DNA of 48,443 bases, taken from contig JANXUC010000019.1 of NCBI GenBank assembly GCA_025352065.1, forward strand, positions 1 through 48,443, in the 5' to 3' direction. This document shows positions 16,045-39,395 of this stretch, one piece after another. A model generated the notes under the pieces. It did not search any database. It was given only the letters and a program-made list of their open reading frames with translations, and was not told the origin of the DNA. The position numbers were made by a program, and so were the translations under genes. The stretch is from Acidobacteriaceae bacterium. Lineage in GTDB: Bacteria > Acidobacteriota > Terriglobia > Terriglobales > Acidobacteriaceae. How positions within the stretch are numbered: the first letter of the stretch is position 1; each line of letters starts with the position of its first letter.

Positions 16045-16758
16045 TTACGGTTCCGATTGCACGAAGCAAACCCGCCCGATGATGTAATCGGCCGAGGCTC
16101 TGCCCGCTTCGATGGTTAGAAACTCCACCGGGAAGCTGTGATTGTGGGGCCGTAGGACCAGATGATTATCCACAACCTCGGCATAGGTGAGGGAGCAGGT
16201 CCGCCCGCGGCGGACGGCATAGATGTTGGCGTCGCCTTTGCGGTAGGGTTTCAGGGAGTTGTAGTGACGGTCTACCAGCACAGTCGCGCCGAACTGCAGG
16301 CGCGGGTGCATGCTGGACCCATCGTATTTATCAACTCCGAGGGCGACGAAGCGCTCCCAGTGTTCACGTTCTCCTTCCATGTCGGCCCTTAGACGCCGAA
16401 GAAAACTCCTGCGGAACTTGAGCACATACTGAATTTGTTGATTCAGGATGCGAGCATCTCCAATCGCATTCCGGTCGGTAAGGGCAATGTTTTCAAAGTC
16501 ATCCGGACTCAGCGGCAAGGCGCTGGCGCGCCGGTTGATCTCGGACGGGTCGAGTAAGTCAAAGATGGACATGTGCTGGGTGGCCAGCACTTTGTCCATA
16601 CCTTCCAGACTTAGCGAGCGCTTCTTATTGAGAAAATTTGAGATATGGGCCTGCTTGAATCCGGTCACTCGTGCCAACCCCAGACCGGTAAGCTGGCCGT
16701 CGTCGATGCGCTCCACCATGGCTTTCCGGAGATTTTCCTGGAGGGTGCGAAATTTCAT
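16045..16758 (-). CDS. Phage-type repressor: HTH plus S24 (LexA/CI-like) C-terminal domain
   Basis: 237 residues. The N-terminal helix-turn-helix (about 5-67, with ARVTGFKQAHISNFL) is followed by a linker and an S24-like C-terminal domain (about 140-235). The GSSMHP at 148-152 carries the expected nucleophile serine (Ser149), but the usual catalytic lysine before the last strands is not obvious (CSLTYAE region). It may therefore bind operators without RecA-stimulated self-cleavage. ATG 16758 is preceded by the palindrome at 16768-16783, so it probably controls itself. It is divergent from the rightward genes and thus acts as the switch of the block. Confidence 0.8.
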   Translation of the reverse strand: MKFRTLQENLRKAMVERIDDGQLTGLGLARVTGFKQAHISNFLNKKRSLSLEGMDKVLATQHMSIFDLLDPSEINRRASALPLSPDDFENIALTDRNAIGDARILNQQIQYVLKFRRSFLRRLRADMEGEREHWERFVALGVDKYDGSSMHPRLQFGATVLVDRHYNSLKPYRKGDANIYAVRRGRTCSLTYAEVVDNHLVLRPHNHSFPVEFLTIEAGRASADYIIGRVCFVQSEP

Positions 16759-17442: not shown

Positions 17443-17703
17443 ATGATCAAGCACATGGAAACAGAAGTGCGCGTCGAGCTGAAGTATTGCGAAAGCTGCG
17501 GTGGATTACGGGTGCGCCCGATGGGATCGGGTCTGGTTTACTGTGCCAGTTGTGCAGCACAACATGCGGACGAAGGGATCCCGCTGTTGGCGCTGCCGGG
17601 GCCGCGACGTCGTCCGCGACTGCCGAGCGGCGTCATCCGCGATCTCCATGGCTGTGTTGGCGCGGGCGTGCTAGGCAGGTCTCTGCTTGAGGCGCGCGCA
17701 TGA
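17443..17703 (+). CDS. Small zinc-ribbon protein
   Basis: 86 residues from ATG 17443, with GGAG 7 nt upstream. Cys16-x2-Cys19 and Cys34-x2-Cys37 form a probable zinc ribbon, and the rest is Pro/Arg-rich. Its stop overlaps the start of the next gene by 4 nt (ATGA), so the two are co-translated. Function unknown; a transcription or nucleic-acid role is plausible for a zinc ribbon in an early phage position. Confidence 0.6.
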   Translation: MIKHMETEVRVELKYCESCGGLRVRPMGSGLVYCASCAAQHADEGIPLLALPGPRRRPRLPSGVIRDLHGCVGAGVLGRSLLEARA

Positions 17704-18239
17704 GCGCGCTCAATGTGTGGCATGGGGATCTGCAGGCGCACGCGACGGAGCCGCCGTGGAGCGAGCCTCCTCAAGTAGAAACGCAAGAAGAGGAAACAGA
17801 GCCGGAGCTTTGTTTGTATCGTTCGCGCACCGTCAATGTACTGAAGAAGTATCTGAGGCTATCGATTCAAACGGGGAGGTTGCCGTCGCTGCTGGGGAAC
17901 TTACATTTTCGAGCACGGAATAGTTCCTATCAGCTCCACACATTTGAAGATGCTGTGATTTTTGTGCTGGATGTCGAGCGCAGTCTGCAGGAGCTGGATC
18001 GCTTCTCGCGCGAGGTGATTGGGCGCGTGATCCTGCAGGAGCATACGGCGGAACACGCTGCGCGCAAGATGCACTGTGGCAACAGAAGTATTGAGCGACG
18101 TTTGCAGGAAGCGCTCGATCAATTGACGAAACACATGCTGGAAAGAGGCATTTTGTCCCGTTTCGAGATCAGTCCAAAATCTTGTCAAGAGGGCAAAAGT
18201 GGTCAATTCCCGCTAAGTCCATGGAAAGAAGGCGAATAA
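17700..18239 (+). CDS. Sigma-like/ArpU-type putative late transcription regulator
   Basis: 179 residues. The C-terminal half, with FSREVIGRVILQEHTAEHAA and the HCGNRSIERRLQEALDQL helix, resembles the region-4-like helix-turn-helix of phage late-gene activators such as ArpU/RinA-type proteins. The N-terminal 40 residues are acidic and variable. Overlap with the zinc-ribbon gene suggests a regulatory pair. The assignment is by pattern, not strong homology. Confidence 0.45.
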   Translation: MSALNVWHGDLQAHATEPPWSEPPQVETQEEETEPELCLYRSRTVNVLKKYLRLSIQTGRLPSLLGNLHFRARNSSYQLHTFEDAVIFVLDVERSLQELDRFSREVIGRVILQEHTAEHAARKMHCGNRSIERRLQEALDQLTKHMLERGILSRFEISPKSCQEGKSGQFPLSPWKEGE

Positions 18240-18844: not shown

Positions 18845-18883
18845 GCATGGGCGGAGCAAGTGAGTTGCTCTGGCGAGGGGACG

Positions 18884-19369
18884 ATGGATTGGAGCTGGAT
18901 CACGAGCCGCATTGCGGTCGGAGGCGGGATATGGAACGCGGAGAACATGGCGGAAGTAGAACGTGCGGGGTTCACGCACGTCATCGACATGCAGTTAGAA
19001 TTTGACGACCGGCCGCTGGCGGAAGGTTTGAGCGTGCAGGTGTTGTGGAATCCGATTGATGATGATTTTCTGCCGAAGCCTGCTGAAGTATTTCGGACGG
19101 GGGTAGATTTCGCGCGTGAAGCGCTGGATCAGGACGGCCGCAAGATTTTGATTCACTGCGCGGCTGGAGTGCACCGGGCTCCGATGATGACACTGGCGCT
19201 GCTGTGCAGTCTGGGCTGGAAGTTGATGGATGCAGTGACACTGATCGAGTCGCGCCGCGCAGTGGTTGATTTTCCCGAAGTGTATTTGAATAGCGTGAGA
19301 GACTTTTTGGCGCAGGGCGAAAACGTGGGTGTGGTGAGTAAGGGCAGGCGCGGCGGGCTGAGGACGTAG
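18884..19369 (+). CDS. Dual-specificity/tyrosine phosphatase
   Basis: 161 residues from ATG 18884 (a GTG at 18860 is an alternative). The signature HCAAGVHRAP holds the catalytic Cys92 and Arg98 (C-x5-R), and a DDDF acid region (about 59-62) could supply the general acid. Dephosphorylation of phosphotyrosine or phosphoserine in a host protein or glycan is expected by fold. It sits in the early region of the phage-derived block, as accessory cargo. Confidence 0.85.
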   Translation: MDWSWITSRIAVGGGIWNAENMAEVERAGFTHVIDMQLEFDDRPLAEGLSVQVLWNPIDDDFLPKPAEVFRTGVDFAREALDQDGRKILIHCAAGVHRAPMMTLALLCSLGWKLMDAVTLIESRRAVVDFPEVYLNSVRDFLAQGENVGVVSKGRRGGLRT

Positions 19370-19642: not shown

Positions 19643-22600
19643 ATGTTGCGTCTAGGAAGCTGGCTGAGGCTGGCGATGTCGGTAGTAGTGCTGGTGGGAG
19701 TGGGCCACGCGTTGCCACCCGTGATGACAACGGTGAGCGACACGGTGTACCGCGCAGACGGCAGTGCGGCGTCAGGGACGATGCTGATTTCATGGCCAGC
19801 GTTTACCACGGCGGATGCCAAGCCAGTTGCGGCGGGGACATTGAGCGTGGCAATTGGCGCAAACGGCGCGGTGTCGGTTGCTTTGGCGCCGAATGCCGGA
19901 GCGAACCCTTATGGCACCTTCTATAAAATTGTTCTGCAATTGAATGATGGAACAACGGAGACAGAGGCCTGGGTGATTCCGGCGTCGGCAACGGCAGTGA
20001 CGATCGGGTCGGTGCGATCAACAGTGGTCCCGTCGAGTGTTGCGTTACAGGTGGCGTCGCGGCAGTACGTGGACAATGCGATCTTATCGAGAGCGTCCGA
20101 CGCAGGGGTGGTACACATCGCGGGGGCAGAAACGATTGCGGGGACGAAGCAGTTCGTCGCGCCGCCCAGCGTTCCACTGCCGCTACAGGCAGCTGACGTA
20201 GCCAACAAGGCGTACGTAGATTTGTCTGTGGCAGCGGTGGGAGCGGGGTCGTTTGTTTCGAAAGCGGGAGACGCGATGAATGGTCCGCTGACGCTTTCGA
20301 GCGATCCGACGGCGCCATCCCAGGCGGCGAACAAGCGGTATGTAGATCTGCAATCGGCAGGGAAGGCAGATCAAGTGGGCGGGGTGGTGCCAGTCACAGA
20401 GTTGGGGAACGGAATTCCGGATAGCACAAAGTGCTTGAAGGGCGACCAGACTTGGGGTGCGTGCGGCACGAGCAGCAACGCGATCCAAATTCAAGGCAAA
20501 GCAGTGGATGGGGTAGCACCAGTGCGGCCTGGGGATGGGTACGTTTGGAATCCTCAAGCCAACGCAGGATTGGGCGCGTGGGTTGTGCAGAAGAAGGCGG
20601 TGCTGGACCTGCGGGACTTCGGAGTGGTTTGCGACGGGGTGACGGATGCGGCACCAGCGATCCAAGCCGCGCTAAACTCGCTGACGTATTTCGGAAGCTA
20701 TCATGTGAAGTTTCCGGCGAATCAATATACGGGTGGGGTAGCGCCTCTATCAAGTGCTTGCGTAATTGGAACGCAACTTACAGTCAAGGGGTGGAATATA
20801 ACCCTGGAAGGAAACGGGACGAAACTGTTTTGCATAACGACTTGCTTCTTTATCAATGACACAGGCGTGTTTGCGCCTCCGGTGAACATCACGCTGGAGG
20901 GATTCGAAGTGTACCCGGGGACGCTGAATGGAACCTCCGCAGCGGTTGTGGATAACGGTCTCGATACGCGGATCATCAATCTGCAAGCGGGAAGCGGTAT
21001 TAATAGCGGGAACAGGTTTGGATACTACGTGGAGAACTTAAACGACCAGAGCGAGTTTGTGGAAGGGCTCAACATGCGAGGGGCGGCAGCGATCCGCTGC
21101 GATGCGACATTTTGCGGAGCGGCGCTTTATGCGCCGGGAGGTTTTGGGACGAACCCCGGAATCACAACGATTTCCCATTCCGACTTAGGAATGCAGTGCC
21201 GAGGGAACGGGATCGACTGGCACTCTGGCAACTATTTGTTCTTAGGGCCCGGCAACATCATACAGGGATACAACCAGTTCGCAATCCGGTTCGACCGGAA
21301 TGACGGTTTCGCGAACAAGCTGGACTTGAGAAACGTCTACCGCGAGACGGGCAATTGCAGTAACCCGCTCGGGAATGTGGGACAGTCGGACATCATCGTG
21401 CAGGGCTCGGTAACGGTAGAGGATAGCGGTGGAGCGACGGGCGGCAATGTGCCCTCGTTTTCTTCGACAGGAACAAACCACCATATGTTTTACGTGGTGG
21501 CAACGAATGCTGGGGGATTGATGTCGAACCCGCTGCCGTTTGGCTATGCGGATTCGAACAATAGCACGACGTTTCACGTGCAGTTCCCGAGGATTCCGGC
21601 GGCGGTGAGCTATGACCTGCTGGTTTCGAGGCAGAGTGCGGGAGTAGACAGCTTCATACCGTGGGGTACGAACGGAAACTGGCTGGCTGCGACGGTAGCG
21701 GATAGCTCTTGTGCGCCGAATGCAGTTTGTGACGCGATCTATAACCCGGCAGCTCCGTTAAGCGCGTATGCCTCTGTTCCAGCGCTGTATTCTGCGCGAT
21801 TTTCGCCGGCACTTCCATATTGGCCAGCTCCGATAGTACTGTCTTCTACCCTGGCGGGAGCAGCGACAGGGAATGTTGGTACATATAACAGCAGCAGTAT
21901 GGCGGGGCCTGTAGTGACTACGGGGCTGACCACAGACTTTGCGGCGAGAAGTTCAGGAAAGAAAGAGAACGGAGCGGATATTTTTCAGCTTTTGGGTACG
22001 CAGGGATACAACACGATGGGGTATACGGGTGGGCCGTTTCAAAGAGGATACATATTCCTAGGGACGAACGAAGCGGTGAACAACACGGCCGAGAATGGAC
22101 GTAAAGGGCGGCTAAACTTCGGTGGATTTTCGTGGACCGCATCGACGATCACAGACCTGGTGACGTGCAGAGACTCGAATTTCCTGAAAACGATGGCGCA
22201 TAGCGGATATCGGCCAAGCGCGGACGCGGGAGACTGTGCTCTGGGAGTGATCTCGGGAGACATCGGATATCTGCGGGCGAAATCGAAGTGGCGTTTTTAC
22301 TTTAACGCAGTGCCGGGGGGTGTGGGGGATACAAATGGCATCGACCTGGGTACGGGTGGAATCAACCTGGCTGCGGGAATGAATTATTCGATTGCGGGCG
22401 CGAACATTGCACCGTTGAGTGCAAAAGGCGATCTGTTGGGCTTTGGAACAGTGCCAGCACGGATTGCAATTGGAGGGGACGGTCAGTGCCTGGTAGCGGA
22501 CTCCACGCAACCGACGGGATTGAAGTGGGCGGCGTGCGGGAGCGGCGGCGGAGGGGGGTCGGCTCCGGGTGGAGTGGGGACCAATGTGCAGTTCAATGAC

Positions 22601-24511
22601 AACGGGGTTTTTGGCGGCGTGGTTGGATTTACGTTTAACAAGCTGACTGGAGATTTAACGGTGCCGGGAATCATTAACGCAAGTGCGATTCAGACGACAG
22701 GGGCGGGGGCGTGGAGCGTGGAGGGTGGGTTTGCGGCGCTGACGGCTCCGGCAGCGGGGCACAGTAAGGTGGGTTTTGGGGCTAACGGGCAACTCTCTAT
22801 CGCGCAGAGCGGTGCGGGGAGCTTTACCGATGTTTCACTTACGGGTCACACACACGCCGAGTCCGACGTTAATAATTTGGTTTCGGATCTCGCGGGGAAA
22901 GCGGCGGTAGTTCACACGCACGTGGCGACGGACGTTGTGAGTGGTACCCTGGCGGCGGCGCGGTTGCCGGTGATGGTGGCTTCAGGAGTAGGTCATGCCG
23001 TGGGTGCTGTTCCAGATGCGGGTGTCACCGCAGGGACGACGCGGTACTTGCGTGAAGATGGGAGCTGGAACGCGCCACCGGGCGGAGGCGGAGGCGGCAC
23101 GCCGGGCGGTTCGACAACACAGGTGCAGTTCAATGACGGTGGGACGTTTGGAGCGGCCCCGAGTTTTACTTTCGACAAAATAACGGGGAATGTGACCTTG
23201 GGCGGATCGGTGACGGCGACGTTGTTTGCGACATCGGGGGCAGGGCCGTGGTCGGTGGAAGGTTCGTTTGGCGCGTTGACGGTGCCGGCCGCGTCGCACA
23301 GCAAGCTTGGATTTGGCAGTGCTGGGGAGTTGGCGGTTGCGCAGAACGGTGGGACGACGTTTACGGATGTTTCGTTGGTAGGTCACTCGCATGTGGGAGC
23401 GGATGTAAGTGGATTAGTAACGGATTTGGCGAGCAAGGCGGCGTTGGCGCATACACATGCGGCGGGAGACATTGTAAGTGGAACGTTGGCCGCAGCGTTG
23501 CTTCCGACGCCGACGGCAACGGCATTGGGTGGAGTGAAATCGAAAGTAGTGGTGACGCATCAGTTTGTAACTGGAATCGGAACAGACGGGTCGGTGAGCC
23601 AGGGGCAGCCTGTTGCGGCTGACATCGGCGGACTTGCGACGTCAGCTACAAGCGACGCGACGAACGCCAGCAATATTGTGTCTGGAACAATGGCGGTGGC
23701 GAGGCTACCGCTGATGGGCGCTTCGGGAGCGGCTCATGCGGCCGGTCTCGTTCCGGATCCGGGTGCGACGGCGGGCACCACGAAGGTGCTGCGTGAGGAC
23801 GGAACATGGAGCAGTATTACGGAGGCGCAGGTGACGAGTTTGGTGGCGGACCTGCCGAGAGCGATTGAGACGACGAAAGGTGATTTGCTGGGGTATGGCG
23901 TGGCTCCGGCGAGACTGGGCGTTGGAGCGGATGGCCAGGTGCTGATGGCAGACTCAACGCAGACGGTGGGTGTGAAGTGGGGGCAGGGGCCGGGAGCGAT
24001 CATTAATACGATCGCAGTTGGGTATGTATTTCTGCCGGGGATTACACTGCCGCAAGCTTCTTCGGTATCGACAGTCGTGGCGGGCACGGCGAATCAAGTG
24101 CGGGTCATGCAGGTGGAGGTACCCGTCACAATCACGGTAGGGAAAATTGTTGCGAACGTGACCACGATCTCAGCGACACAGAATATTTTTGTTGGGGTCT
24201 ACGACACAACGGGCAACAAACTGCTTGAGGCTGCAGTTTCCTGTGCGGTCTTGAATGGCGCAACTACGAGCTTGGGAACACCGGTGACTCTGACGCCGGG
24301 GACCTACCTCTATGCCGTGAGCGCGTCGGACACGACGTGCGCGGCAGGGGGGATGTCGCTAAGCGGGGGTTGGTTCAACATGCTGGACAAGAACACGACA
24401 CGGACGGCAACAGCGGCTAATGCGGTATCGGGCGGAATCATGCCTTCCACGCTTGGAACGCTGACGTTCAACTCTAGCTTCACACCTATCGTAACCATGT
24501 TGGAGAGGTAA
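19643..24511 (+). CDS. Large exported tail-fibre/spike-like protein with pectate-lyase-type beta-helix
   Basis: 1622 residues from ATG 19643, chosen because AAGGAGG lies 4 nt upstream; the frame is open 240 bp further left without support. The N-terminus is a signal peptide (LRLAMSVVVLVGVGHALPP), unusual for a tail fibre. Then come tail-fibre-type modules (AGDAMNGPLTLSSDP, YVDLQSAGKAD), a pectate-lyase-3-like region (about 320-560, starting LDLRDFGVVCDGVTDAAPAI), and two tandem copies of a block of about 130 residues (22.6-23.5 kb), each framed by a KGDLLG...ADSTQ...GLKW-type module. The C-terminus is a beta-rich domain. Host surface glycan binding or cleavage is likely. Confidence 0.75.
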   Translation: MLRLGSWLRLAMSVVVLVGVGHALPPVMTTVSDTVYRADGSAASGTMLISWPAFTTADAKPVAAGTLSVAIGANGAVSVALAPNAGANPYGTFYKIVLQLNDGTTETEAWVIPASATAVTIGSVRSTVVPSSVALQVASRQYVDNAILSRASDAGVVHIAGAETIAGTKQFVAPPSVPLPLQAADVANKAYVDLSVAAVGAGSFVSKAGDAMNGPLTLSSDPTAPSQAANKRYVDLQSAGKADQVGGVVPVTELGNGIPDSTKCLKGDQTWGACGTSSNAIQIQGKAVDGVAPVRPGDGYVWNPQANAGLGAWVVQKKAVLDLRDFGVVCDGVTDAAPAIQAALNSLTYFGSYHVKFPANQYTGGVAPLSSACVIGTQLTVKGWNITLEGNGTKLFCITTCFFINDTGVFAPPVNITLEGFEVYPGTLNGTSAAVVDNGLDTRIINLQAGSGINSGNRFGYYVENLNDQSEFVEGLNMRGAAAIRCDATFCGAALYAPGGFGTNPGITTISHSDLGMQCRGNGIDWHSGNYLFLGPGNIIQGYNQFAIRFDRNDGFANKLDLRNVYRETGNCSNPLGNVGQSDIIVQGSVTVEDSGGATGGNVPSFSSTGTNHHMFYVVATNAGGLMSNPLPFGYADSNNSTTFHVQFPRIPAAVSYDLLVSRQSAGVDSFIPWGTNGNWLAATVADSSCAPNAVCDAIYNPAAPLSAYASVPALYSARFSPALPYWPAPIVLSSTLAGAATGNVGTYNSSSMAGPVVTTGLTTDFAARSSGKKENGADIFQLLGTQGYNTMGYTGGPFQRGYIFLGTNEAVNNTAENGRKGRLNFGGFSWTASTITDLVTCRDSNFLKTMAHSGYRPSADAGDCALGVISGDIGYLRAKSKWRFYFNAVPGGVGDTNGIDLGTGGINLAAGMNYSIAGANIAPLSAKGDLLGFGTVPARIAIGGDGQCLVADSTQPTGLKWAACGSGGGGGSAPGGVGTNVQFNDNGVFGGVVGFTFNKLTGDLTVPGIINASAIQTTGAGAWSVEGGFAALTAPAAGHSKVGFGANGQLSIAQSGAGSFTDVSLTGHTHAESDVNNLVSDLAGKAAVVHTHVATDVVSGTLAAARLPVMVASGVGHAVGAVPDAGVTAGTTRYLREDGSWNAPPGGGGGGTPGGSTTQVQFNDGGTFGAAPSFTFDKITGNVTLGGSVTATLFATSGAGPWSVEGSFGALTVPAASHSKLGFGSAGELAVAQNGGTTFTDVSLVGHSHVGADVSGLVTDLASKAALAHTHAAGDIVSGTLAAALLPTPTATALGGVKSKVVVTHQFVTGIGTDGSVSQGQPVAADIGGLATSATSDATNASNIVSGTMAVARLPLMGASGAAHAAGLVPDPGATAGTTKVLREDGTWSSITEAQVTSLVADLPRAIETTKGDLLGYGVAPARLGVGADGQVLMADSTQTVGVKWGQGPGAIINTIAVGYVFLPGITLPQASSVSTVVAGTANQVRVMQVEVPVTITVGKIVANVTTISATQNIFVGVYDTTGNKLLEAAVSCAVLNGATTSLGTPVTLTPGTYLYAVSASDTTCAAGGMSLSGGWFNMLDKNTTRTATAANAVSGGIMPSTLGTLTFNSSFTPIVTMLER
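22579..23530 (+). repeat. Tandem internal protein repeats of the tail-fibre gene
   Basis: Two blocks (about 22579-23080 and 23119-23530) encode near-parallel sequences: QFNDNGVF / QFNDGGTF, SVEGGFAALTAPA / SVEGSFGALTVPA, TDVSLTGHTHA / TDVSLVGHSHV, VVSGTLAAARL / IVSGTLAAALL. A third partial block follows at 23641. They look like duplications of a shaft or trimerisation module. This is not a CRISPR array. Confidence 0.85.
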
Positions 24512-26746
24512 ATGAGAGCATATTTGGCTTTCCTGGGAGTAGTGTGCCTGGCGGGGACGGGTTGGGCGAGCACGTACTTTGTCGATTCCGCCGGCGGCAA
24601 TGACACGAACAGCGGGCAATCCGCACAGACGCCGTGGAAGACGGTGGCGAAGGTGAATGCGTCGACGTTTGCGGCGGGGGACTCGGTGCTATTCAAGCGC
24701 GGCGGGGTTTGGACGGAGAGCCTGGTCCCGCCGTCGAGCGGGGCGGCGGGGAATCCGATTGCGTTTGACGCTTACGGGCAAGGGTCGGCGCCACTGTTGA
24801 CGGGGTATTTGGGGCTTCCGACAACGAGTTGGACGTTGGTGAGCGGGAGTGTATGGAAAGCGACGGTGACGGCGTCTTCCATGAACTATTTATTGTTCGG
24901 GACGGTTTGGGGAAACAAGCAGACGGCGCAGGCGAACGTGCTGCACGACCGAGATTGGTATTTCGCGTCGAACACTTTGTTTGTGTTTTCTACTACTGGA
25001 AACCCAACGACTTACTACGGGAACGTGGCGGCGATGTTGTTGGCGTTCGGACAGGTGATCTATCTAAATGGCGTCAGCTTCGTGAATGTGCAGCACTTCA
25101 AGCTGACGTACTTTGACAGCTATGGAGTGCGCATTGCCGGAGCGGCGCATGACATCACGGTCGCGAACGTGTGGGCGGAAGGGATCATTCCGAATGCGAC
25201 ACTGCCGCAGGGATTTAGTGTGGGGTCGACGGCGGGGGCGGCAAACATCAACCTCTACAACGTGGATAGCCATCGAAACTACAACGGATTTCAGGTTGCG
25301 TCGACGGCGGGAGTGACGCTGAAAAATTGCAGGGCATATGCGGATCGGTTCGCAGGCTTGAACGATAACACTGCGAACACGATGTATTCGAACTGTCATT
25401 TTTTTGGAAACACGTTGGGAGTTTTGCCGTCGCCGGGAACGACGATGACGCTGGATGTGATTGGCGGCACGGACGGGGGCGGGAATGTAGCGGTCAATAC
25501 GTGGCCGGGAGTAGTGGATTTTGCGAAGTATCCGGCGCGAATTGCGTTCACCGTGGATGATGTGGGGCTGACTCCGCTGGCGGATGTGTACATCAACACG
25601 TTGACGCCGACGGTGGTAGCGCACGGACTGCGGATGTCGATGGGGATTCAGACGGGGTTTGCGAATCTTTATATAGCAGAGATTCAGGGGTGGCTGGCGG
25701 CGGGGCATGATCCGACGTCGCACTCGTGGTCGCACTCCTACTACACGAACACGAGCTGGTTGACGGTGCAATACACAGGGACGGGGACGGCGGCGACGAT
25801 GTCGCTGTCTGGAAACATTCTGACGACGACGGTGACGGGCGGAACTGGCGGAGAGAACTTGAGCTTGGATTTGACGAATCCGCTGTACAGCTCGATTCAT
25901 GCACTGGGATTGTTCTTGAGGTTCAACGCTCCGGGTTACACAGCGATCCAGGATCCGAACGCACATGATGCGATGCACTCCTATACGCTGGCGGACTTTG
26001 CGGGAGCCAACATCAGGTCGACGGGATACAACATGCAGCTCGATAAGTCGAGATACGTGAACGACGAGATGGCGTTTTCTAAAGCGTGGATGGAAAGCAA
26101 CATTGTGGGGGCAGGGAATCAGACGGCGTATGTGTATCCCGATGGACTGGGAGACGCGAGTACGTTTGTGTGGTCTGCGGCGAATGGATACAAAGGCGCG
26201 CGCGGGACATTGAGTATGGACCTAGGCAACCGCGATATTCCGTCGGGTGGGAACGGATTGGGTATCAATATTCAGAACGTAACGAGTCTGGCGATTACGA
26301 AGCTGCATGGGTTCACGACGCAGCAGATACAGGGGCAGATGGCAGAGCTGGTTTTCAAATCGGCGGTATGGGGCGTACCGTATGGATTGTTTTGCCACAT
26401 TGATGAAGTGACGCCAGCGGAAGTGAGCGCTGCGCTGGATGGACTCGTGCAACACGGAGCGGTGGTGGTTACAAATCGGCAGATGATCGATGCGATTTTT
26501 ACAGGTACAAATGTTCCTGGAACGTTTTACTACACGAGTGCGGCGACGGGTCGGGAGCCGAACTTGCGAGGGACGGCGGCGTCACCGACGGCGGGGGCGG
26601 GGGCGAATCTTGGAGCGGCATTCGCGATCGATTTGGATGGGCGGGATCGAGGAACGTTTGGATGGGATATAGGGTCGACGGTCAGTAACCCTGCGAGCCG
26701 AGGCAGCGGGAACGGCGCAGGGCAAGGAACGGCGGTGATGCAATGA
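24512..26746 (+). CDS. Exported beta-helix protein with NodB-type polysaccharide deacetylase domain
   Basis: 744 residues. The start ATG follows directly after the previous stop codon. A signal peptide ends near WAS (18-20). Residues about 22-330 form a parallel beta-helix-type repeat (TYFVDSAGGNDTNSG is typical). From about 342 a CE4/NodB-like domain has a metal-ligand pair candidate, TVDD (347-350) and HSWSH (404-408). Deacetylation or cleavage of a glycan at the cell surface is likely; the substrate is unknown. The coupling with the preceding fibre gene and overlap with the next gene indicate one operon. Confidence 0.75.
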   Translation: MRAYLAFLGVVCLAGTGWASTYFVDSAGGNDTNSGQSAQTPWKTVAKVNASTFAAGDSVLFKRGGVWTESLVPPSSGAAGNPIAFDAYGQGSAPLLTGYLGLPTTSWTLVSGSVWKATVTASSMNYLLFGTVWGNKQTAQANVLHDRDWYFASNTLFVFSTTGNPTTYYGNVAAMLLAFGQVIYLNGVSFVNVQHFKLTYFDSYGVRIAGAAHDITVANVWAEGIIPNATLPQGFSVGSTAGAANINLYNVDSHRNYNGFQVASTAGVTLKNCRAYADRFAGLNDNTANTMYSNCHFFGNTLGVLPSPGTTMTLDVIGGTDGGGNVAVNTWPGVVDFAKYPARIAFTVDDVGLTPLADVYINTLTPTVVAHGLRMSMGIQTGFANLYIAEIQGWLAAGHDPTSHSWSHSYYTNTSWLTVQYTGTGTAATMSLSGNILTTTVTGGTGGENLSLDLTNPLYSSIHALGLFLRFNAPGYTAIQDPNAHDAMHSYTLADFAGANIRSTGYNMQLDKSRYVNDEMAFSKAWMESNIVGAGNQTAYVYPDGLGDASTFVWSAANGYKGARGTLSMDLGNRDIPSGGNGLGINIQNVTSLAITKLHGFTTQQIQGQMAELVFKSAVWGVPYGLFCHIDEVTPAEVSAALDGLVQHGAVVVTNRQMIDAIFTGTNVPGTFYYTSAATGREPNLRGTAASPTAGAGANLGAAFAIDLDGRDRGTFGWDIGSTVSNPASRGSGNGAGQGTAVMQ

Positions 26747-29691
26747 GCAATCGCGTGGCGAGTTTGTTCCTGGTGGTGGTGAGTGCGACGTTGGGTTGGG
26801 CGCAGTCGGCGCAAGGCGGGAAGCTGGTGGACCGAGGTGGAGCGGTTTACTCGACGGGAGCGACGGGGAGTCTGTTGTTTGGCGACAACCGTTACTGCGG
26901 CAAGGGTGATGTAGCGGCGTTTGGAGCAGCGTTTGATGGCCCAGCGCAACTACCTATCGCTTGCATCTACACGGGGTCGGACGGCACACCGTCGGGCAAG
27001 CATCTGGACGGGGCGACGGCGACGACGTGGCAGGTGCGCAGCGACGCGGATACGGTGAGATGCACGGTGGGTCCCCCGGACAATGGCAACTGCGCTGTTC
27101 CGGACTGGAACGCTGCGTTGTTGGGAGTGCAGTGCGGCGACGTGATTTTGCTGGAGCACAGTGCAGTTATGACGGGGAATTTTGTATTGCCGGGACTGCC
27201 ATGCGATGCGGGACACTGGGTGACGGTGGAGTCGGATTCCGTGGTGACAGATGCAAACTTCCCGGCGGAAGGAACGCGGGCAACGCCGTGTCACATTGGG
27301 CTGGCCTCGGTGGCATACTACCCAAGCTATCCGTGCACAAGTCCGGCGAACCGGATGGCGAAATTTGTGACGCCGACCCAGTTGGCAGCGATCACGACGA
27401 ACGGCTGCAACGTTGCGCCGTGTACGCAGTTTTGGCGATTCATCGGAATTGAAGCGACGAATACGGCGGGAGTTCGCACGGCGCACAAACTGCTGGAGAT
27501 GGATGGAGCGGACCACATGATTGTGGACCGGAGCATCGTTCATGGAACAGATGCAGCACACCCTCCGACTGGCGGAGCTGCGGCGTTTGATGTCTCCTAC
27601 GAAGCGCAGGGCGGAGTCAGTATCAACGGCACGTTTCTTGCTGTCATCGATTCGTGGGTGTATGACATTTTCTGCATGGGGAACTGTATTGATGCACAGG
27701 GGGTAGCGGGGGGTACAGGACAGTATGCGCAGAGGACGCAAAAGATTGTGAACAACATGATCGCAGCGAGCGGAGAAAGTTGGTTTTGGGGAGGCGGGCC
27801 GCATGCCCATCTATGCGATGCGGTGACCAACGTGCATTGTACGAATACAGATATTGAAATTCGCAGGAATCACAGTTTTAAGCCGCTGTCCTGGTTTTTA
27901 GCGAAAGGCGGGAGCGGGAACCATCCATTAACCAAGAATTTAGGGGAGACGAAGGCGTCGGACCGGTCGCTGTGGGAAGGGAACATTTCCGAGAACAGCT
28001 TTACGGGGTGGCAGTCGGACCAGTTTGGAAATGCGCATCTGTTGACGCCGAAGAGCCAAGCTGTAATTGTGCAGCCGGGAACGGCGAGCATACAAATTTC
28101 CAGGACCGGATGTCCGGGTGCAGGGTGCCATCTCTATGCGGACGCGTCGGTACCGTGGTTTACGTGCGACTCGGCAGCGTCGAGCCAATATACGAATCCA
28201 GTGGGTGCGAACTACTGCAATCCGACCGATCTCGGTGGCACCACCATGGTTGCGTTTCAGGGTTTGCCAGGGGAGTATCCCCGGTCGTGTCCTTCGACGG
28301 AGTTGTCGTGCCGGCTCGGTGTTCCGAAAACGACATCGAGTACGCGATACCACATTAAGCAGTACGTTGCAACGCAGTCTCCGGACCACGGAGTGTCTAC
28401 GCGGGTGGAGTTGTGGGACGAAGGGGCGGCAACGCCGGATCAGCCCTTGGGCACGCTCGCACAGTTTTGCAAACGAGGGTCGGACCCCTACGCAGCAGTG
28501 TACAACCACACACTGAGATACGAGTTGGACCGGCACACGGCAGATTTGTTGGAGGTCCTGACCGCGGAGTCGGACTGTGGAGACAATGCGCAAGGGATCC
28601 ACAACGTATCCATCCACGACGTTGTGGGGTACGACATCAATCCGCAATTTTGGCAGAACGCAGCAACCAGCGGTTGCTGCACGCTGGGATGGAACATGAA
28701 GCTGGAGAGTGCAACAACCGACCCAAGCACAGTGCCGGAGCAAATCAGCTACAAACATAACACCGTCGCGCTAACGGGGTGGCAAGGGAATCACTCAGGG
28801 ATGGTGAATTGGTTCGACCAGAAGTACGACGCGAACACAGCGCCGAACCTGGCGGCATTCTTTTCCGGGATAACGATCAAAGACAACATATCGAGTGGGC
28901 CTTTCTCGATCGGCGCGGGCACGAATATCGGCAGCAGTTTTCTTAGCCATGTTCCGGGAGGTAGTGCGAATGGTCCGATGAGCGAGGGCCTGGCGATCTA
29001 CGCGTGCTCAGGTCACGACGGAACAGGGTGTAACTATGACATCAAGAAGAATCTGATTTTGGAAGGAATTGTTGCAGGGCAGTTGAACAACACGGCGGAC
29101 CTTCATCTTTTGGGATCGAACACAGTGGAAGCGTGCGGCTGCACGACGGCGACGAACGGTGGGACATGCACGGCGGGGAATCCTAACACCTGGGCGACGC
29201 CGGTGACGACGGGAACGGCGGATGCTTGCGATCGCACGGTGGCGGGGTATGGCGATGTTTTCACAAACTACGATCCTAACGGTGGACCAACAACAGATTT
29301 GACGCTGAAGAGTGGGAGTCCGTATTTGGGTCAGGCTTCCGATGGTGGGAACTTCGGAGCCGATGTAGCCGGCGTTCTGCTGAAGACGCAGGGTGTGGCG
29401 TCAGCGGTCAACTTTGGAGCGCTGGCAGTCACGACGGTGAGCCTGCCAGCTGGGACTAACGGGGTAGCGTATTCGCAGCAGGTGCAATCGACTGCGGGGG
29501 CCTCTCCTTACAAACTGTGGACGTTGGTTTCTGGAACATTGCCTGCGGGGCTGGCCCTGTCTGTGGGAGACGGAACAATTTCCGGCACACCGACGGCGGC
29601 TTGTATAGCATCCGCATGTACGTTTGCGGTGCAAGTGCAGGACGCCGGGCGACAAGTGGATACGCAGACATTGAGCATTGCGGTGAACTAG
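26743..29691 (+). CDS. Exported Cys-rich beta-helix protein with C-terminal Ig-like domain
   Basis: 982 residues. The start overlaps the previous stop by 4 nt (ATGA). A signal peptide (MSNRVASLFLVVVSATLGWA) is followed by a long repetitive region with right-handed beta-helix character (HNVSIHDVVGYDI, IVNNMIAASGESW) and many cysteines, suggesting disulfides outside the cytoplasm. The C-terminus (about 895-982) is a putative Ig-like He_PIG domain (LPAGTNGVAYSQQV, ISGTPTAA). Function unknown; surface-exposed or particle-associated adhesin/depolymerase is the best guess. Confidence 0.7.
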   Translation: MSNRVASLFLVVVSATLGWAQSAQGGKLVDRGGAVYSTGATGSLLFGDNRYCGKGDVAAFGAAFDGPAQLPIACIYTGSDGTPSGKHLDGATATTWQVRSDADTVRCTVGPPDNGNCAVPDWNAALLGVQCGDVILLEHSAVMTGNFVLPGLPCDAGHWVTVESDSVVTDANFPAEGTRATPCHIGLASVAYYPSYPCTSPANRMAKFVTPTQLAAITTNGCNVAPCTQFWRFIGIEATNTAGVRTAHKLLEMDGADHMIVDRSIVHGTDAAHPPTGGAAAFDVSYEAQGGVSINGTFLAVIDSWVYDIFCMGNCIDAQGVAGGTGQYAQRTQKIVNNMIAASGESWFWGGGPHAHLCDAVTNVHCTNTDIEIRRNHSFKPLSWFLAKGGSGNHPLTKNLGETKASDRSLWEGNISENSFTGWQSDQFGNAHLLTPKSQAVIVQPGTASIQISRTGCPGAGCHLYADASVPWFTCDSAASSQYTNPVGANYCNPTDLGGTTMVAFQGLPGEYPRSCPSTELSCRLGVPKTTSSTRYHIKQYVATQSPDHGVSTRVELWDEGAATPDQPLGTLAQFCKRGSDPYAAVYNHTLRYELDRHTADLLEVLTAESDCGDNAQGIHNVSIHDVVGYDINPQFWQNAATSGCCTLGWNMKLESATTDPSTVPEQISYKHNTVALTGWQGNHSGMVNWFDQKYDANTAPNLAAFFSGITIKDNISSGPFSIGAGTNIGSSFLSHVPGGSANGPMSEGLAIYACSGHDGTGCNYDIKKNLILEGIVAGQLNNTADLHLLGSNTVEACGCTTATNGGTCTAGNPNTWATPVTTGTADACDRTVAGYGDVFTNYDPNGGPTTDLTLKSGSPYLGQASDGGNFGADVAGVLLKTQGVASAVNFGALAVTTVSLPAGTNGVAYSQQVQSTAGASPYKLWTLVSGTLPAGLALSVGDGTISGTPTAACIASACTFAVQVQDAGRQVDTQTLSIAVN

Positions 29692-29822: not shown

Positions 29823-31376
29823 GTGAGCGCAAATATCTCGTTGTTAGAAGAGTGGGGGCAGGACCTTGACCAGGAATTGCCGACGATGGAATGGACCCAT
29901 GGAGATAAGACGATCCTGGTCGAAAGACCAAGGCGCCGGGATATTTTGATGCTGCAGTGTCTGAAGATACGGCAAAAAGACAAACGGCTGGGGCCCCTGG
30001 TTCCGAATCGAGCACAGCGGGAGTACGAAAAACAGCGGACCAAAAACAACATTGTTCTGAAAGCAAGACAGCTTGGGATCACAACTTACGTGGCGGCACG
30101 GTTCTTTGTGGAAACGATAACGCAGCCAGGGACTCTGACCGTGCAAGTCGCGCATGACCAAGAATCTGCGGAAGAAATTTTTAAGATCGTGCACCGTTTC
30201 TGGGAGAACCTGCCTGGAGACCTCCGTCGCGGAAGGCTGAAGACTTCGCGGGCGAATGTTCGCCAGCTCGTCTTTCCGAAATTGGATAGCGAGTATCGGG
30301 TGGAAACGGCGGCCGATCCGAACGCGGGGCGCGGGCTAACCATCCATAACCTGCATTGCTCGGAGGTAGCCCGGTGGCCCCGCGACGGAGCTGAGACATT
30401 GGCGTCGCTGCGGGCGGCAGTTCCGCCGGATGGAGAGATTGTGCTGGAGTCGACGCCGAACGGGGCAAGTGGAGTCTTCTACGAGGAGTGGCAGCGGGCA
30501 GCGGAGACAGGCTACACGCGGCACTTTTTCCCCTGGTGGTATGAGCCGACGTATGTGGTTGACCACGATGCTGAGAATCTAAACGAAGAGGAATCCGAGC
30601 TGATGAAACGGTTTGGAGTGAACGCTAAACAGATTGGGTGGCGGCGGACGAACCGATCAAGTTTGCGGGATCTTGCTCCGCAGGAGTTTGCGGAAGATGC
30701 GAGCGCTTGCTTCCTGGCATCGGGAGAATGTGTTTTTGAATTAAAAAAGATTGCACTACGGATCGAGCGATGTGGGCCTCCGCTGGACAGCTGGGACAAC
30801 GAACGCATTTTAGTTTGGCTACCGCCGGTAGCCTCGCATGAATACATTGTTGGAGTGGATCCGGCTGGCGGAGGGACGGGTGGCGATTATGCGACGGCGC
30901 AAGTCATCGACCGTGTTACGGGTATGCAGTGTGCCGAATTGCAGGGGCATTATCCGCCTCGAGAATTGGCGGAGCGGGTGGCAGACTTAGCGCGGTCTTA
31001 CAACCAAGCCTTGGTGGTGGTGGAACGGAACAACCACGGCCACGCTGTATTGGCGTACTTGAACGAAAGGGAAAATTATCAGGAATTGTTTGAGCAGGAT
31101 GGGCAGTTGGGATGGTTGACGTCGGCGGCGACGCGGCCTGCGATGGTGGAAAATTTTGCGGCGGTGCTAGCCACGGCTCCACAGTTGTTTCACAGTGGAA
31201 GGCTGTTGAATGAGTGCCGAACGTTTGTGCGGCACACGGATGGAAGCACGGCAGCGTCGGCAGGAGCCCACGACGACTGTATTTTGGCGATGGCGATTGC
31301 GTTCGCAGCACGCAAGGCACTCGCTGGAAATTTGAGTAAGGCAAAGCTGGCGGCGTTGGCGGGATTTAACGGTTGA
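29823..31376 (+). CDS. Phage large terminase subunit
   Basis: 517 residues, GTG start with GGGAG upstream. The ATPase has a deviant Walker A (KARQLGITT, 80-88), a Walker B glutamate (Glu181) and the coupling motif LESTPNG (208-214). The nuclease (RNase-H-like) domain shows DPAGG (346-350), ERNNHG (401-406) and AHDD (482-485). It cuts and packages DNA into procapsids. All key residues look intact, so packaging could still work. 131 bp precede it without a clear gene. Confidence 0.95.
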   Translation: MSANISLLEEWGQDLDQELPTMEWTHGDKTILVERPRRRDILMLQCLKIRQKDKRLGPLVPNRAQREYEKQRTKNNIVLKARQLGITTYVAARFFVETITQPGTLTVQVAHDQESAEEIFKIVHRFWENLPGDLRRGRLKTSRANVRQLVFPKLDSEYRVETAADPNAGRGLTIHNLHCSEVARWPRDGAETLASLRAAVPPDGEIVLESTPNGASGVFYEEWQRAAETGYTRHFFPWWYEPTYVVDHDAENLNEEESELMKRFGVNAKQIGWRRTNRSSLRDLAPQEFAEDASACFLASGECVFELKKIALRIERCGPPLDSWDNERILVWLPPVASHEYIVGVDPAGGGTGGDYATAQVIDRVTGMQCAELQGHYPPRELAERVADLARSYNQALVVVERNNHGHAVLAYLNERENYQELFEQDGQLGWLTSAATRPAMVENFAAVLATAPQLFHSGRLLNECRTFVRHTDGSTAASAGAHDDCILAMAIAFAARKALAGNLSKAKLAALAGFNG

Positions 31377-31431: not shown

Positions 31432-32262
31432 GTGGGCGTTTTAAGAGCCAATGTGGCGATTGCGGCAGTCCAACACGTGAGAAGAATGCGAGGCGGAGCA
31501 CAAGGACACTTGATGCGCTGCTCCGACGGCCAGTTTTATGTGGTGAAGTTTCGCAACAACCCACAACACTTGCGGGTGCTGGCAAATGAGTTGTTGGCTA
31601 CTCGATTGGCGGAACGGGTTGGGCTTCCGGTGCCAGCAGTGGAAGTGATCGAAGTGAGTGAATGGCTGGTGGACCATACGCCCGAACTGAATATTCAACT
31701 GGCACACGAGACGATTAACTGCCAGGCGGGGTTAGAGTTTGGATCGCGATATGTGGTAGCTCCGCCGTGGGATGGGCAGGTGCTGGACTATCTGCCGGTG
31801 GAGATGTTTCCGCGGGTACGCAATTTGGAAACGTTTGCTGGGATTCTGGCGCTGGATAAGTGGACGGGGAATGCGAACGGGAGACAGGCGGCGTTCTGGC
31901 GAAAGATGCGGGAGAAAAAATATACCGCTGCATTTATCGACCAGGGATATTGTTTCAACGCGGGGGAGTGGACGTTTCCGGATAATCCGCTACGCGGGGT
32001 GTATATGAGGAATGAAGTCTACGCTGCGGTGACGGGGTGGGAGTCGTTTGAGCCGTGGCTGTCGCGGATTGAAGTGTTGGAGAAGGATGCGGTGTGGGCG
32101 GTGGCGGGAGAGATTCCTCCCGAGTGGTACGGGGGAGATTGGAACGCACTGGAAAAGCTGGTGCTTGCGTTGATTGCAAGGCAGCAGCGTGTTCGGGAGT
32201 TGATTGAGGAGTTCAGGATTTCTCCGAGGAGGCCGTTTCCTTTGTGGAAGAACGAGAATTGA
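31432..32262 (+). CDS. HipA-like kinase (HipA_2 family)
   Basis: 276 residues, GTG start with GGAG 5 nt upstream. The kinase signatures are GGAQGHLMRC (glycine loop, about 21-30), Lys39 in YVVKF, Glu53, LDKWTGN (catalytic loop, 141-147) and FIDQG (metal-binding Asp170). The N-terminal HipB-interacting part of true HipA is missing. HipA_2 proteins are typically encoded next to DUF3037 proteins, as here, and the role is unknown; a toxin/defence function is possible. It interrupts terminase and portal, so it is inserted cargo. Confidence 0.8.
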   Translation: MGVLRANVAIAAVQHVRRMRGGAQGHLMRCSDGQFYVVKFRNNPQHLRVLANELLATRLAERVGLPVPAVEVIEVSEWLVDHTPELNIQLAHETINCQAGLEFGSRYVVAPPWDGQVLDYLPVEMFPRVRNLETFAGILALDKWTGNANGRQAAFWRKMREKKYTAAFIDQGYCFNAGEWTFPDNPLRGVYMRNEVYAAVTGWESFEPWLSRIEVLEKDAVWAVAGEIPPEWYGGDWNALEKLVLALIARQQRVRELIEEFRISPRRPFPLWKNEN

Positions 32263-32336: not shown

Positions 32337-33140
32337 ATGGTACCTCAACGACAATGTGAATTCTTCTTGCTGCGGTATGTGCCGGACGCGGTGAAGGATG
32401 AGTTTGTCAACATTGGGGTCGTGATGCTGGAGGCCGAGGCTGGATTTGCGGACATCCGACTTACACGGGACTGGCGACGGGTTCGATGCCTTGATCCGGG
32501 CGTCGACGTGGAGATGCTGGAGGCGGTGGAGCGCGAGATTCGTGCGCGGCTAACGGATGTTCAGGACCGAGATGCATTGGTGAGGAAGCTGGAAGATTCG
32601 CTATCGAATCTTATTCAGCTCTCTCCGGCGAAGGGGTGCCTGACCGACGATCCAAGAAAAGAGATTGAAGAGATAGCGTCGATGTATCTGGAAACGAAGC
32701 GCGTTGGTGAGAAGCGCGAAGCAAGCGGGCGACGGCGGATTTACGGACAAATGCGGGCTGCTTTTGAGCAGGCTGGAGTTTGGCCGCACATGCGACAGGG
32801 AATCGCGGTGGAGCAGTATACGCACAAGGGCGACCCTCTGAAGATCGATTGTGGATACAGGCCGAATGGGGACATCAAGTTGTTTCAAGCGATATCGCTG
32901 GCAGCGGATGTGAACGTCGCGAAGGTGCTGGCGTTTAGCTACCCGCAGATTGCTGCCAGCATTCTGCGCCAGGAAAATGCGACAGCGCAACTGACTGCTG
33001 TGGTCGAGGCCAACATGAATATCGAAGACGAAGGTGTGTCGTTTGCTTACAAGATTCTGGAACAGAGTGGCATCAGGGTCGTAGCCGTGGGCCAAATGCA
33101 ACAGATTGCGGAAATAGCACGGAAAGAGTTGAGGCTGTAG
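32337..33140 (+). CDS. DUF3037-domain protein, partner of the HipA-like kinase
   Basis: 267 residues. The N-terminal CEFFLLRYVPDAVKDEFVNI plus GVVMLE is the DUF3037 signature, and the rest is mostly helical. The family co-occurs with HipA_2 kinases, so the pair is likely a functional unit (substrate, antitoxin or modulator). No catalytic motif was recognised. It lies 74 bp after the kinase and just before the portal gene. Confidence 0.75.
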   Translation: MVPQRQCEFFLLRYVPDAVKDEFVNIGVVMLEAEAGFADIRLTRDWRRVRCLDPGVDVEMLEAVEREIRARLTDVQDRDALVRKLEDSLSNLIQLSPAKGCLTDDPRKEIEEIASMYLETKRVGEKREASGRRRIYGQMRAAFEQAGVWPHMRQGIAVEQYTHKGDPLKIDCGYRPNGDIKLFQAISLAADVNVAKVLAFSYPQIAASILRQENATAQLTAVVEANMNIEDEGVSFAYKILEQSGIRVVAVGQMQQIAEIARKELRL

Positions 33141-34504: not shown

Positions 34505-35080
34505 ATGATGGCAATCGAACTGGAAGGCATGGCGATTGAGATGCCGCGGGTAACGGGGCATCCGAACCGCGTGGGTTTTCGGGGAGTGTTGACGGTGCTG
34601 GACGAGGCTTCCGATAAGCCACCGGCAGGAGCGCGGGGCCATCGAGTGCTGTTGACTCGGAAGGCCGCGCAGGAAGCGCTTCCGTCACTCCTTGGGATGG
34701 GCGTGGGCTATGCGCCATCGCTCGACCGGCATGACACACGGCGCAAGGTCGGAGTAATTACGCAGGCGGAAATTGTTGGAAAGAATGTGGAACTGAGCGG
34801 GTATTTGTTTGGTAAAGATTTTCCTGAACTGGTAAGGGAGATGAAGAAGGCGGGTGGGAAAGCTGGGACGGGAAGAGGTGAAGTAAATTGCTGGGGCGGC
34901 GCGGCGGGGAGAGTGCCGGTGGCACAAGCGTTGGGCATGTCCTACGAAATTGCCAACGCGCGAATCGCAGATGTGAGAGCGAAGGTTTGGATATTGACGC
35001 ATGTGACGTTTACGGGGGCCGCGATTTTGCGTCGAGACAAAGCGGCGTACGGGAAGACGTGGATCGAGCTGGATCAGTAG
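34505..35080 (+). CDS. Probable prohead maturation protease
   Basis: 191 residues. The location between portal and capsid, and the elements LDRHD (His near 75) and GMSYEIA (Ser near 145), fit a serine-type prohead protease with a His-Ser pair. Overall sequence similarity is low, so this is a position-based call. It has a strong GGAAGAGG-type ribosome-binding site and tandem ATGs at 34505 and 34508. Confidence 0.5.
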   Translation: MMAIELEGMAIEMPRVTGHPNRVGFRGVLTVLDEASDKPPAGARGHRVLLTRKAAQEALPSLLGMGVGYAPSLDRHDTRRKVGVITQAEIVGKNVELSGYLFGKDFPELVREMKKAGGKAGTGRGEVNCWGGAAGRVPVAQALGMSYEIANARIADVRAKVWILTHVTFTGAAILRRDKAAYGKTWIELDQ

Positions 35081-35586: not shown

Positions 35587-35620
35587 AAGGGCACGGCTTC
35601 GGCTGTGCCCTTTGTTTTTT
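35587..35620 (+). terminator. Intrinsic terminator before the capsid gene
   Basis: AAGGGCACGGC (35587-35597), loop TTCG, GCTGTGCCCTT (35602-35612) pair with one G-T wobble, followed by a T-rich run. It splits the scaffold gene from the capsid gene. Confidence 0.85.
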
Positions 35621-35683
35621 GCAAAGTGCGGTTCGCAAGGGGACACGAGATTTTCAGAAGCAACAAAAATAGGAGAGCACAAC

Positions 35684-36702: not shown

Positions 36703-36731
36703 TACCGACGAGGGAAAGATTAGGAGTGGCG

Positions 36732-39322: not shown

Positions 39323-39357
39323 GCTCGGGGCGAGGAGTCCGTGGATCATCCGCGGAC

Positions 39358-39395
39358 AGCAGATTCCTTAGGGCTGAAGCCCTTCGGAATGACAA
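39358..39395. repeat. 38-bp dispersed repeat inside the phage-derived block
   Basis: An inverted copy of the chromosomal repeat at 15499-15536, with 36 of 38 bases identical. It sits in the 131-bp gap between the tail-tube candidate and the 776-residue tail protein. Confidence 0.85.

Follow-up and report, generated by a model that had tools for sequence, protein, structure and literature searches.

Gene transfer agents (GTAs) such as RcGTA, BaGTA and BhGTA are classed as viriforms (PMC9662315). According to the accessible part of that account, a GTA is fixed in the host genome and inherited vertically, encodes caudovirion-like proteins, and forms particles that carry mostly random host DNA and deliver it to cells. 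Here we describe an element on contig JANXUC010000019.1 of an Acidobacteriaceae bacterium (assembly GCA_025352065.1; the whole analysed stretch of 48,443 nt is called the window), in which three genes for large proteins with export signals, P1 to P3 (positions 19643-29691), stand among phage-type packaging and structural genes. Like those GTAs, the element appears to be phage-derived and fixed in the chromosome, with distances that track the host and no tyrosine integrase in its contig. It differs in belonging to another phylum and in having export signals on its fibre-like proteins, and it is known from its genes alone, the comparison being made without a direct homology search against RcGTA.

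The accessible part of Eichorst et al. (2018; PMC5900883) places KBS 89 scaffold00005_5, 60000-90000, in prophage Cluster 153, among putative active prophages. One of our loci (L168) is the same scaffold at 67858-89243. It lies within the Cluster 153 interval and the KBS 89 copy is therefore the same element (the other Cluster 153 members were not checked). That part of the text mentions neither vertical inheritance nor exported fibres for Cluster 153. Tunturiibacter phage Tunturi_4 has a protein, gp15, resembling our tail hub candidate, but it is an 88-kb siphovirus isolate with a tape measure, and P1 has no match in it. In the accessible text on the Tunturi phages, the authors distinguish a group (ii) of Terriglobales proviruses, which may be related to the element. 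A Sphagnum virome study (PMC12142844, in part) connects a provirus region of Acidobacteriaceae with one shared contig; in general terms, it states that vertically inherited cryptic phages can turn into gene transfer agents.

For the proteins themselves, the closest parallels are of three kinds. The RcGTA tailspike TspA (PMC13420450, a preprint) is likewise a GTA-linked, polysaccharide-active spike and degrades biofilm; it differs in being baseplate-bound and detachable, and the strings 'signal peptide', 'secret' and 'periplasm' do not occur in the accessible text. Xanthomonas phage PBR31 gp40 is an esterase with a signal peptide that resembles tail-associated hydrolases and is proposed to aid lysis (PMC10975493, in part). 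Unlike the proteins described here, it is a 215-aa esterase encoded beside lysis genes, and neither a fibre nor a large multidomain protein. Pantoea stewartii WceF is, to our knowledge, not part of a phage element. It is a glycan biofilm-modifying enzyme with, by the title of its PDB entry (6tgf), a phage-tailspike-like β-helix, and P1 resembles it weakly in fold (E 1.5e-3, on a poor P1 model). Within the open-licence PMC literature, as far as its text was accessible, we found no vertically inherited acidobacterial element of this kind and no signal peptides on tail fibres, PBR31 gp40 being the nearest case.

Computation shows conserved export signals, a CE4 motif, purifying selection, gene order and signs that inheritance is vertical. 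The explanation we favour, though we stop short of calling it probable, is that the element is a gene-transfer-agent-like domesticated phage whose fibre or spike proteins would be exported by the Sec pathway to act on polysaccharide at the surface.

Export signals and domains of P1, P2 and P3

The original prediction described three successive genes of 1622, 744 and 982 residues, joined by a 0-bp junction and a 4-bp overlap and placed before the terminase, and rechecking of the coordinates, starts and stops bears this out. The TAA of P1 ends at 24511 and P2 begins at 24512, an ATGA at 26743-26746 is common to the P2 stop and the P3 start, and the gene for the terminase large subunit (TerL) begins at 29823, directly after the end of P3 at 29691. 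A start-codon artefact was considered for the P1 signal, the frame being open upstream to 19403, and was rejected: the start ATG at 19643 is preceded by a Shine-Dalgarno sequence, AGAAGGAGG. Promoter and terminator scans gave no excess over shuffled sequences.

A Sec-type signal peptide had been claimed for each of the three proteins, and signal prediction and homologues agree. The N-termini (P1, MLRLGSWLRLAMSVVVLVGVGHA-; P2, MRAYLAFLGVVCLAGTGWA-; P3, MSNRVASLFLVVVSATLGWA-) all open with a short charged stretch, which a hydrophobic core and a site of small residues follow. Signals were called with a home-made rule (not SignalP) based on a hydrophobic window, net charge and small residues at -3/-1; it picks the most favourable start codon and was identical for test and control sequences. 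Homologues were counted if distinct over their first 400 residues, from 143 partly overlapping loci, leaving out the window itself and taking in related and partial copies. On this count, N-termini resembling signal peptides occur in 70/78 P1, 19/21 P2 and 1/2 P3 homologues. The controls, 13 other genes of the element, gave 16 calls in 780 sequences (TerL 2/95, portal 3/78, capsid 0/70, adaptor 1/53, g37806 1/44, g38324 0/64, hub 0/8, HipA_2 6/86, DUF3037 1/85, phosphatase 0/29, regulator 0/38, g34505 2/68 and g35136 0/62). For P1 the calls are 50 of the 55 homologues from loci that also show TerL, and 20 of the 23 from loci in which no TerL is shown. Several of the eight P1 homologues that failed did so visibly on account of the start chosen or the strict charge and site rule.

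A second test does not depend on P1 homology. It used 69 of the 80 named loci (the best 80 of 215), namely those with at least 4 kb of upstream sequence. Signal-like N-termini are present in 71/108 large unassigned open reading frames (ORFs) upstream of TerL, compared with 6/157 large ORFs downstream, and 60 of the 69 loci have at least one large upstream ORF of this type.

The signals vary in their letters, while charge, hydrophobic core and an A-x-A-like site are kept in most P1 and P2 homologues and in a 940-aa protein from a second family (below). In P1 homologues the variable signal is followed by a near-constant stretch, TTV-D-VYRADG-PA-GTLLISWPAFTTADG. Varying letters with a kept signal character, and constancy directly after it, are the pattern of a selected export signal. 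By the home-made rule, the n-, h- and c-regions and the SPase I-like site typical of Sec-exported proteins are conserved. Export of P1 and P2 is well supported on these grounds, and that of P3 by its own signal only. It had also been suggested that the proteins are secreted or surface-displayed instead of being assembled on a phage in the cytoplasm. The export half of this suggestion is well supported by sequence, which cannot decide between a free protein, one on the cell surface, and one that joins a particle after lysis.

The proteins differ in how far their domains can be recognised. P2 is predicted to be a β-helix/CE4 polysaccharide deacetylase, which is supported by its structural model (pLDDT 73): the first part matches GH136 and lyase β-helices, and the second CE4 esterases (E ~3e-3, TM by target 0.63-0.68). 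The Pfam matches to β-helix and polysaccharide deacetylase are both weak and below their cut-offs (deacetylase score 19.3, cut-off 23.1). Residues D349-D350, H404, H408 and H629, which we take to be the CE4 metal-binding D-H-H and catalytic residues, are invariant in 17/17 sequences, so that P2 keeps the key residues of the CE4/NodB polysaccharide deacetylases. CE4 enzymes usually act outside the cytoplasm, and the invariant site of P2 therefore fits work outside the cytoplasm.

P1 contains phage tail repeats (PF12789, E 1.7e-8), and its motifs suggest a phage tail fibre or spike. Its structural model (pLDDT 44.6) is untrustworthy, and the fold matches obtained with it, to tailspike-like folds and, for the N-domain, to phage neck/collar fibre domains, are all weak and serve as leads only. 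P1 matches 12 phage records, chiefly through its stalk and repeat regions. Its N-terminal part has one weak match in viral contigs (residues 187-235), at a locus without any other gene of the element. P3 matches a single family, the Ig-like He_PIG, at its C-terminus, and searches with P3 find matches only through this end. The description of all three as β-helix proteins is therefore supported for P2 alone, which has a CE4 domain besides. Nor do the three genes form a fixed trio in relatives: P1 is present in 62/80 named loci, P2 in 19/80 and P3 in 1/80, counts that are limited by the many loci that end early.

Locus and inheritance of the element

TerL is found in 24/61 genomes (the window's own and 60 relatives), and all 24 belong to the window's own family, the Acidobacteriaceae (f1). 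A TerL profile matches 223/398 sampled genomes of the family, 171/256 of those of good quality, and 51/79 genera. By our own count from the profile-search table, 205 of the 223 have a single TerL match and the other 18 have two or three, in some cases pieces of one gene; a few of the single matches are weak or partial. The titles of 79/80 named loci are Acidobacteriota taxa, many of them Acidobacteriaceae. One locus labelled Rhodanobacteraceae (L170) carries the acidobacterial element and is possibly a mis-binned contig.

The element has a preferred position. For this analysis 47 genomes were selected for few contigs (40 with TerL, 7 without), and the 34 of the 40 for which a TerL position was available were scored. 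In 26 of these 34 near-complete genomes, a convergent gene for a 2-oxoacid dehydrogenase E2 lies 8-17 kb downstream of TerL. The E2 flank also carries remnants in genomes without TerL: one (G072) keeps the left side of the element and a stub of P1 (residues 5-110), and another (G073) keeps the phosphatase, HipA_2 and DUF3037 genes. Two others (G001 and G010) have no E2 match.

The distances of element genes correlate with those of rpoB (Mantel r, 18 to 20 genomes, 0/2000 permutations for each): 0.79 for the portal, 0.63 for the capsid, 0.63 for the tube, 0.65 for DUF3037 and 0.70 for HipA_2. Trees of 18 genomes, compared without a formal congruence test, have in common a fully supported clade (G011, G016, G018, G030, G033 and G034) and groups such as G020-G029-G031, and disagree on the place of G009, G012, G017 and G022. 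Median dN/dS, calculated from close pairs alone (3 to 52 pairs per gene), is 0.045 to 0.152 over seven element genes, and by this measure the genes are under purifying selection.

The element is also found beyond the family. A capsid profile matched 35 of 200 sampled genomes of the class, 33 in f1 and 2 in a second family of the same class (f7); a third f7 genome (G055) gave no capsid match. Both f7 carriers have the element at the same locus, between an SLT/LysM gene and E2. One (G518) encodes the further 940-aa signal-bearing protein mentioned above. In the other (G503) TerL has the opposite orientation and lies away from the rest, and the portal match is split in two. A search for tyrosine integrases (PF00589, the only recombinase family sought genome-wide) gave 11 matches in the genome and none in the window contig; integrase and excision genes, as expected of a temperate prophage, were thus not found in the element by this one family, and relatives were not searched.

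Vertical inheritance of the element is well supported by these comparisons, and we interpret the block as a domesticated element that predates the family. The element agrees with the requirement that a GTA be fixed in its host genome, mostly vertical and co-diversifying, with the reservations that 8/34 genomes do not have the shared flank and that tree congruence was judged without a formal test. The original prediction spoke of a phage-derived block. The genes are indeed a phage-derived cluster, but this frame misses the vertically inherited, domesticated element that the locus, the tracking of rpoB, the remnants and the second family point to.

Gene order and particle genes

Most of the 20 fetched elements begin with the S24-like repressor and small genes, continue with regulator, phosphatase, P1 and TerL, and then carry HipA_2, DUF3037, portal, capsid, adaptor, tube and hub, in this order. 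The features of the window are listed in Table 1.

Table 1. Features of the element and its flanks in the window.
Feature	Position	Strand	Remarks
Left host flank, SLT + LysM lytic transglycosylase	12305..14221	+	Upstream in 8/20 fetched and both f7 elements
S24-like repressor, left end of element	16045..16758	-	phrog_4, E 1.2e-6; Pfam S24 below cut-off
Transcriptional regulator	17700..18239	+	phrog_36; weaker sigma-factor match; in 19/20 elements
Dual-specificity phosphatase-like protein	18860..19369	+	Just before P1
P1	19643..24511	+	1622 aa; Sec signal ~1-24, conserved N-domain ~27-130, phage-type stalk repeats (YVD; PTR), β-rich middle (low-confidence model), variable C-terminus
P2	24512..26746	+	744 aa; Sec signal, β-helix ~21-298, CE4/NodB deacetylase ~343-663 (predicted)
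P3	26743..29691	+	982 aa; Sec signal, C-terminal He_PIG Ig-like domain
TerL	29823..31376	+	
HipA_2-like kinase	31432..32262	+	74/80 loci; median dN/dS 0.064
DUF3037 protein	32337..33140	+	Adjoins HipA_2; 69/80 loci; median dN/dS 0.079
Portal protein	33239..34444	+	PF04860
Conserved protein g34505	34505..35080	+	Prohead-protease position (inferred)
Conserved small protein g35136	35136..35567	+	Scaffold position (inferred)
Major capsid protein	35612..36655	+	By position, no family match; 76% mean column identity, 14 sequences
Head-tail adaptor	36726..37358	+	phrog_442
Tail-tube candidate	38324..39322	+	2/16 homologues weakly match phrog_476 major tail protein
Tail hub/tip candidate	39319..41784	+	29.8% identity to Tunturi_4 gp15
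Protein with lipoprotein-like N-terminus (LATAC)	41975..42562	+	By eye
Papain-type C1 peptidase	42559..43338	+	
Right host flank, 2-oxoacid dehydrogenase E2	43924..45252	-	Downstream in 11/20 fetched and both f7 elements

There are exceptions to this order. One genome (G007) has matches only to P1, TerL and one OMP gene on the contig concerned, with its capsid gene on another contig. In another genome (G033) and in seven named loci (L139, L145, L148, L151, L167, L168 and L170) the tube and the hub are 8.7-10.2 kb apart, which demonstrates, or is compatible with, a shift of a head-tail block to a place upstream of P1. In L148, L168 and G033 (L037/L083) the block from g34505 to g38324 stands upstream of P1, and TerL, HipA_2, DUF3037 and portal still follow P1. 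Several genomes thus have this rearrangement in common and retain the genes concerned. In the window the HipA_2 kinase and DUF3037 pair sits between TerL and the portal (31432-33140). The lipoprotein-like protein follows the hub in the window, and its homologue lies before TerL in L017, L018 and G005. A Lys/Ala-rich histone-like protein is seen by eye in the left host flank (14332-14844), and the DDE transposase of an insertion sequence lies at the contig end, past the E2 flank (46915-48303).

The cluster contains the caudovirion-like structural proteins expected of a GTA: TerL, portal and adaptor are recognised by profile, and capsid and tail by position and weak matches. A search of 50,697 phage records at E 0.01 found nothing that matches the capsid or tube candidates; the portal reaches at most 25% identity (5 records), and TerL 31% among the matches listed (12 of 317 records). 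Profile searches of the PDB with hub, tube and capsid returned nothing useful.

Tube and hub are no more than 400 bp apart in 50 of 60 f1 loci, which leaves no room there for a tape measure. The remaining ten consist of eight rearranged loci and two with gaps of 847 and 1072 bp that hold no long ORF. A 420-aa tape-measure candidate is seen by eye in one f7 genome (G518). A normal long tail is therefore doubtful, and any particle that is made may have a short tail.

Weighing the explanations

The favoured explanation would work as follows. An ancient, domesticated and vertically inherited prophage of the Acidobacteriaceae keeps its packaging, capsid and tail-hub genes under purifying selection, as GTAs do. 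The P1-type proteins would be fibres made from phage parts, and P2 a β-helix/CE4 polysaccharide deacetylase; with cleavable Sec signals, P1 and P2 would cross the inner membrane and, outside the cytoplasm, act on polysaccharide of the cell envelope or matrix. Most likely, the secreted proteins would prepare or mark the surface of the producer and its sibling cells by binding, deacetylating or loosening polysaccharide. The recognition and remodelling part would thus be secreted, while the DNA-filled part would be assembled inside and released by lysis. Signal cleavage, the final location and substrate of the proteins, the formation of particles, the transfer of DNA, and the cooperation of the secreted proteins with particles are inferred. 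Besides the signal counts, the CE4 site and the signs of vertical inheritance, support for this explanation includes the counts of the P1 N-domain, the two other large ORFs with signal-like N-termini in G004, the P1 kept in G027 and the fusion of P1 to the hub, all described below. In its boldest form, which we consider possible but doubtful, the element would be an unrecognised family-wide GTA (viriform) made of two parts, a cytoplasmic particle and Sec-secreted fibres and polysaccharide enzymes that dress producer and neighbour cells and so control who receives DNA.

A number of observations weigh against the favoured explanation. The model of P1 is poor, and P2 and P3 have the low counts given above. 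Under the mechanical rule, 9/69 loci have no large upstream ORF with a signal. The E2 flank is not adjacent in 8/34 genomes (G140, G240, G261, G294, G343, G371, G089 and G033), and two of the four inspected genomes without TerL (G068 and G014) have no remnant of the element at it. Further adverse points are given with the alternatives.

P1 to P3 may instead be host surface or matrix proteins, such as adhesins and polysaccharide enzymes, that the element carries as cargo and that are unconnected with particles. We regard this as rather unlikely. In its favour, P1-like proteins with signal peptides occur outside the element (L026 and L027): one in G004 stands alone beside guaA, and one in G014, which has pectate-lyase and laminin-G parts, is next to a sigma-54 regulator. 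P1 may therefore work without a particle. The element of one genome (G025) looks complete but has no large ORF between its phosphatase and TerL genes, and the P1-like gene of that genome is on a separate contig, where the 20 kb fetched hold no further gene of the element. Although without TerL, G027 retains the regulators, P1 and a P2 of 330 aa beside E2 with no TerL-to-hub gene between, and a P3-like gene lies on the other side of E2. The weak resemblance of P1 to WceF, a bacterial enzyme, points the same way.

Against cargo, the P1 N-domain occurs in 24/24 f1 genomes with TerL and in 6/13 without (Fisher p 1.7e-4), two families have P1 within the element, each at a different position, and in the G072 remnant P1 is cut to residues 5-110. 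The N-domain is upstream of TerL in 18/20 fetched elements. In G004 a pair of other large ORFs (565 and 1597 aa; L091:448-6938), with signal-like N-termini by eye, occupies the slot before TerL, and the P1-type N-domain of this genome is on another contig. G004 and G025 together indicate that the slot is usually, not always, filled; they pull in opposite directions and leave the standing of the explanations unchanged.

The second alternative, which we consider unlikely, is that P1 and P2 are true tail fibres or spikes that are exported to the periplasm, and that join the particle or help to break the envelope once the inner membrane fails at lysis. The tail repeats and stalk motifs of P1 resemble a virion fibre, as does its position in f7, where it follows the hub and again has a signal, and the N-domain is weakly like phage neck/collar fibre domains (on the poor model). 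Two genomes without TerL, G021 and the 53% complete G036, share a gene in which the signal-bearing residues 1-293 of P1 are joined in frame, through about 180 further residues, to the C-terminal part of the hub from residue 274; it reaches hub residue 821 in G036 and is cut by the contig end in G021. The fusion loci are L023:8943-12002 and L022, and a muramidase gene is next in L023 (12827-13825). The signal-bearing esterase PBR31 gp40 is a near precedent (PMC10975493, in part). On the other side, no exported tail fibre that joins a virion was found in the accessible open-licence PMC literature, and a tail for P1 is doubtful given the 50/60 f1 loci with no room for a tape measure. The favoured explanation, cargo, and fibres that act after export are poorly separated by the current evidence.

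It is very unlikely that the signal-like segments are unused and that these are ordinary fibres assembled in the cytoplasm. The fibre-like motifs of P1 and the location within a phage-derived cluster would fit this, but signal character is kept despite varying letters in P1, P2 and the 940-aa f7 protein, other element genes mostly lack it (16/780), and P2 belongs to the CE4-type enzymes.

An ordinary temperate prophage that repeatedly reinserts at one site would account for the S24-like repressor and structural genes, for the three IMG/VR 'viral' contigs that carry the element (L016-L018), and for the accessible statement of earlier authors that such regions are likely active prophages (PMC5900883), but is hardly credible. 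Its reinsertion would need to mimic the host phylogeny, and against it stand the host-congruent distances, the remnants at the same locus in 2/4 inspected genomes, one TerL match in 205/223 genomes, a capsid without match in the phage records, and no PF00589 match in the window contig (other recombinases and relatives not being searched). An ordinary prophage with an odd fibre was likewise rejected, given the copy number, shared locus, host-congruent distances, remnants and the lack of a tyrosine integrase in the contig.

Acidobacteriota are abundant in soil (PMC5900883, in part). A selected phage-derived element present across much of one family, and at the same locus in another, would, if this is true, represent an old and testable route by which genes are exchanged, or cell surfaces controlled, in soil. 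Phage-type fibres that are exported would break the rule that tail fibres are assembled in the cytoplasm, and would offer a concrete way to ask whether domesticated phages split recognition from packaging.

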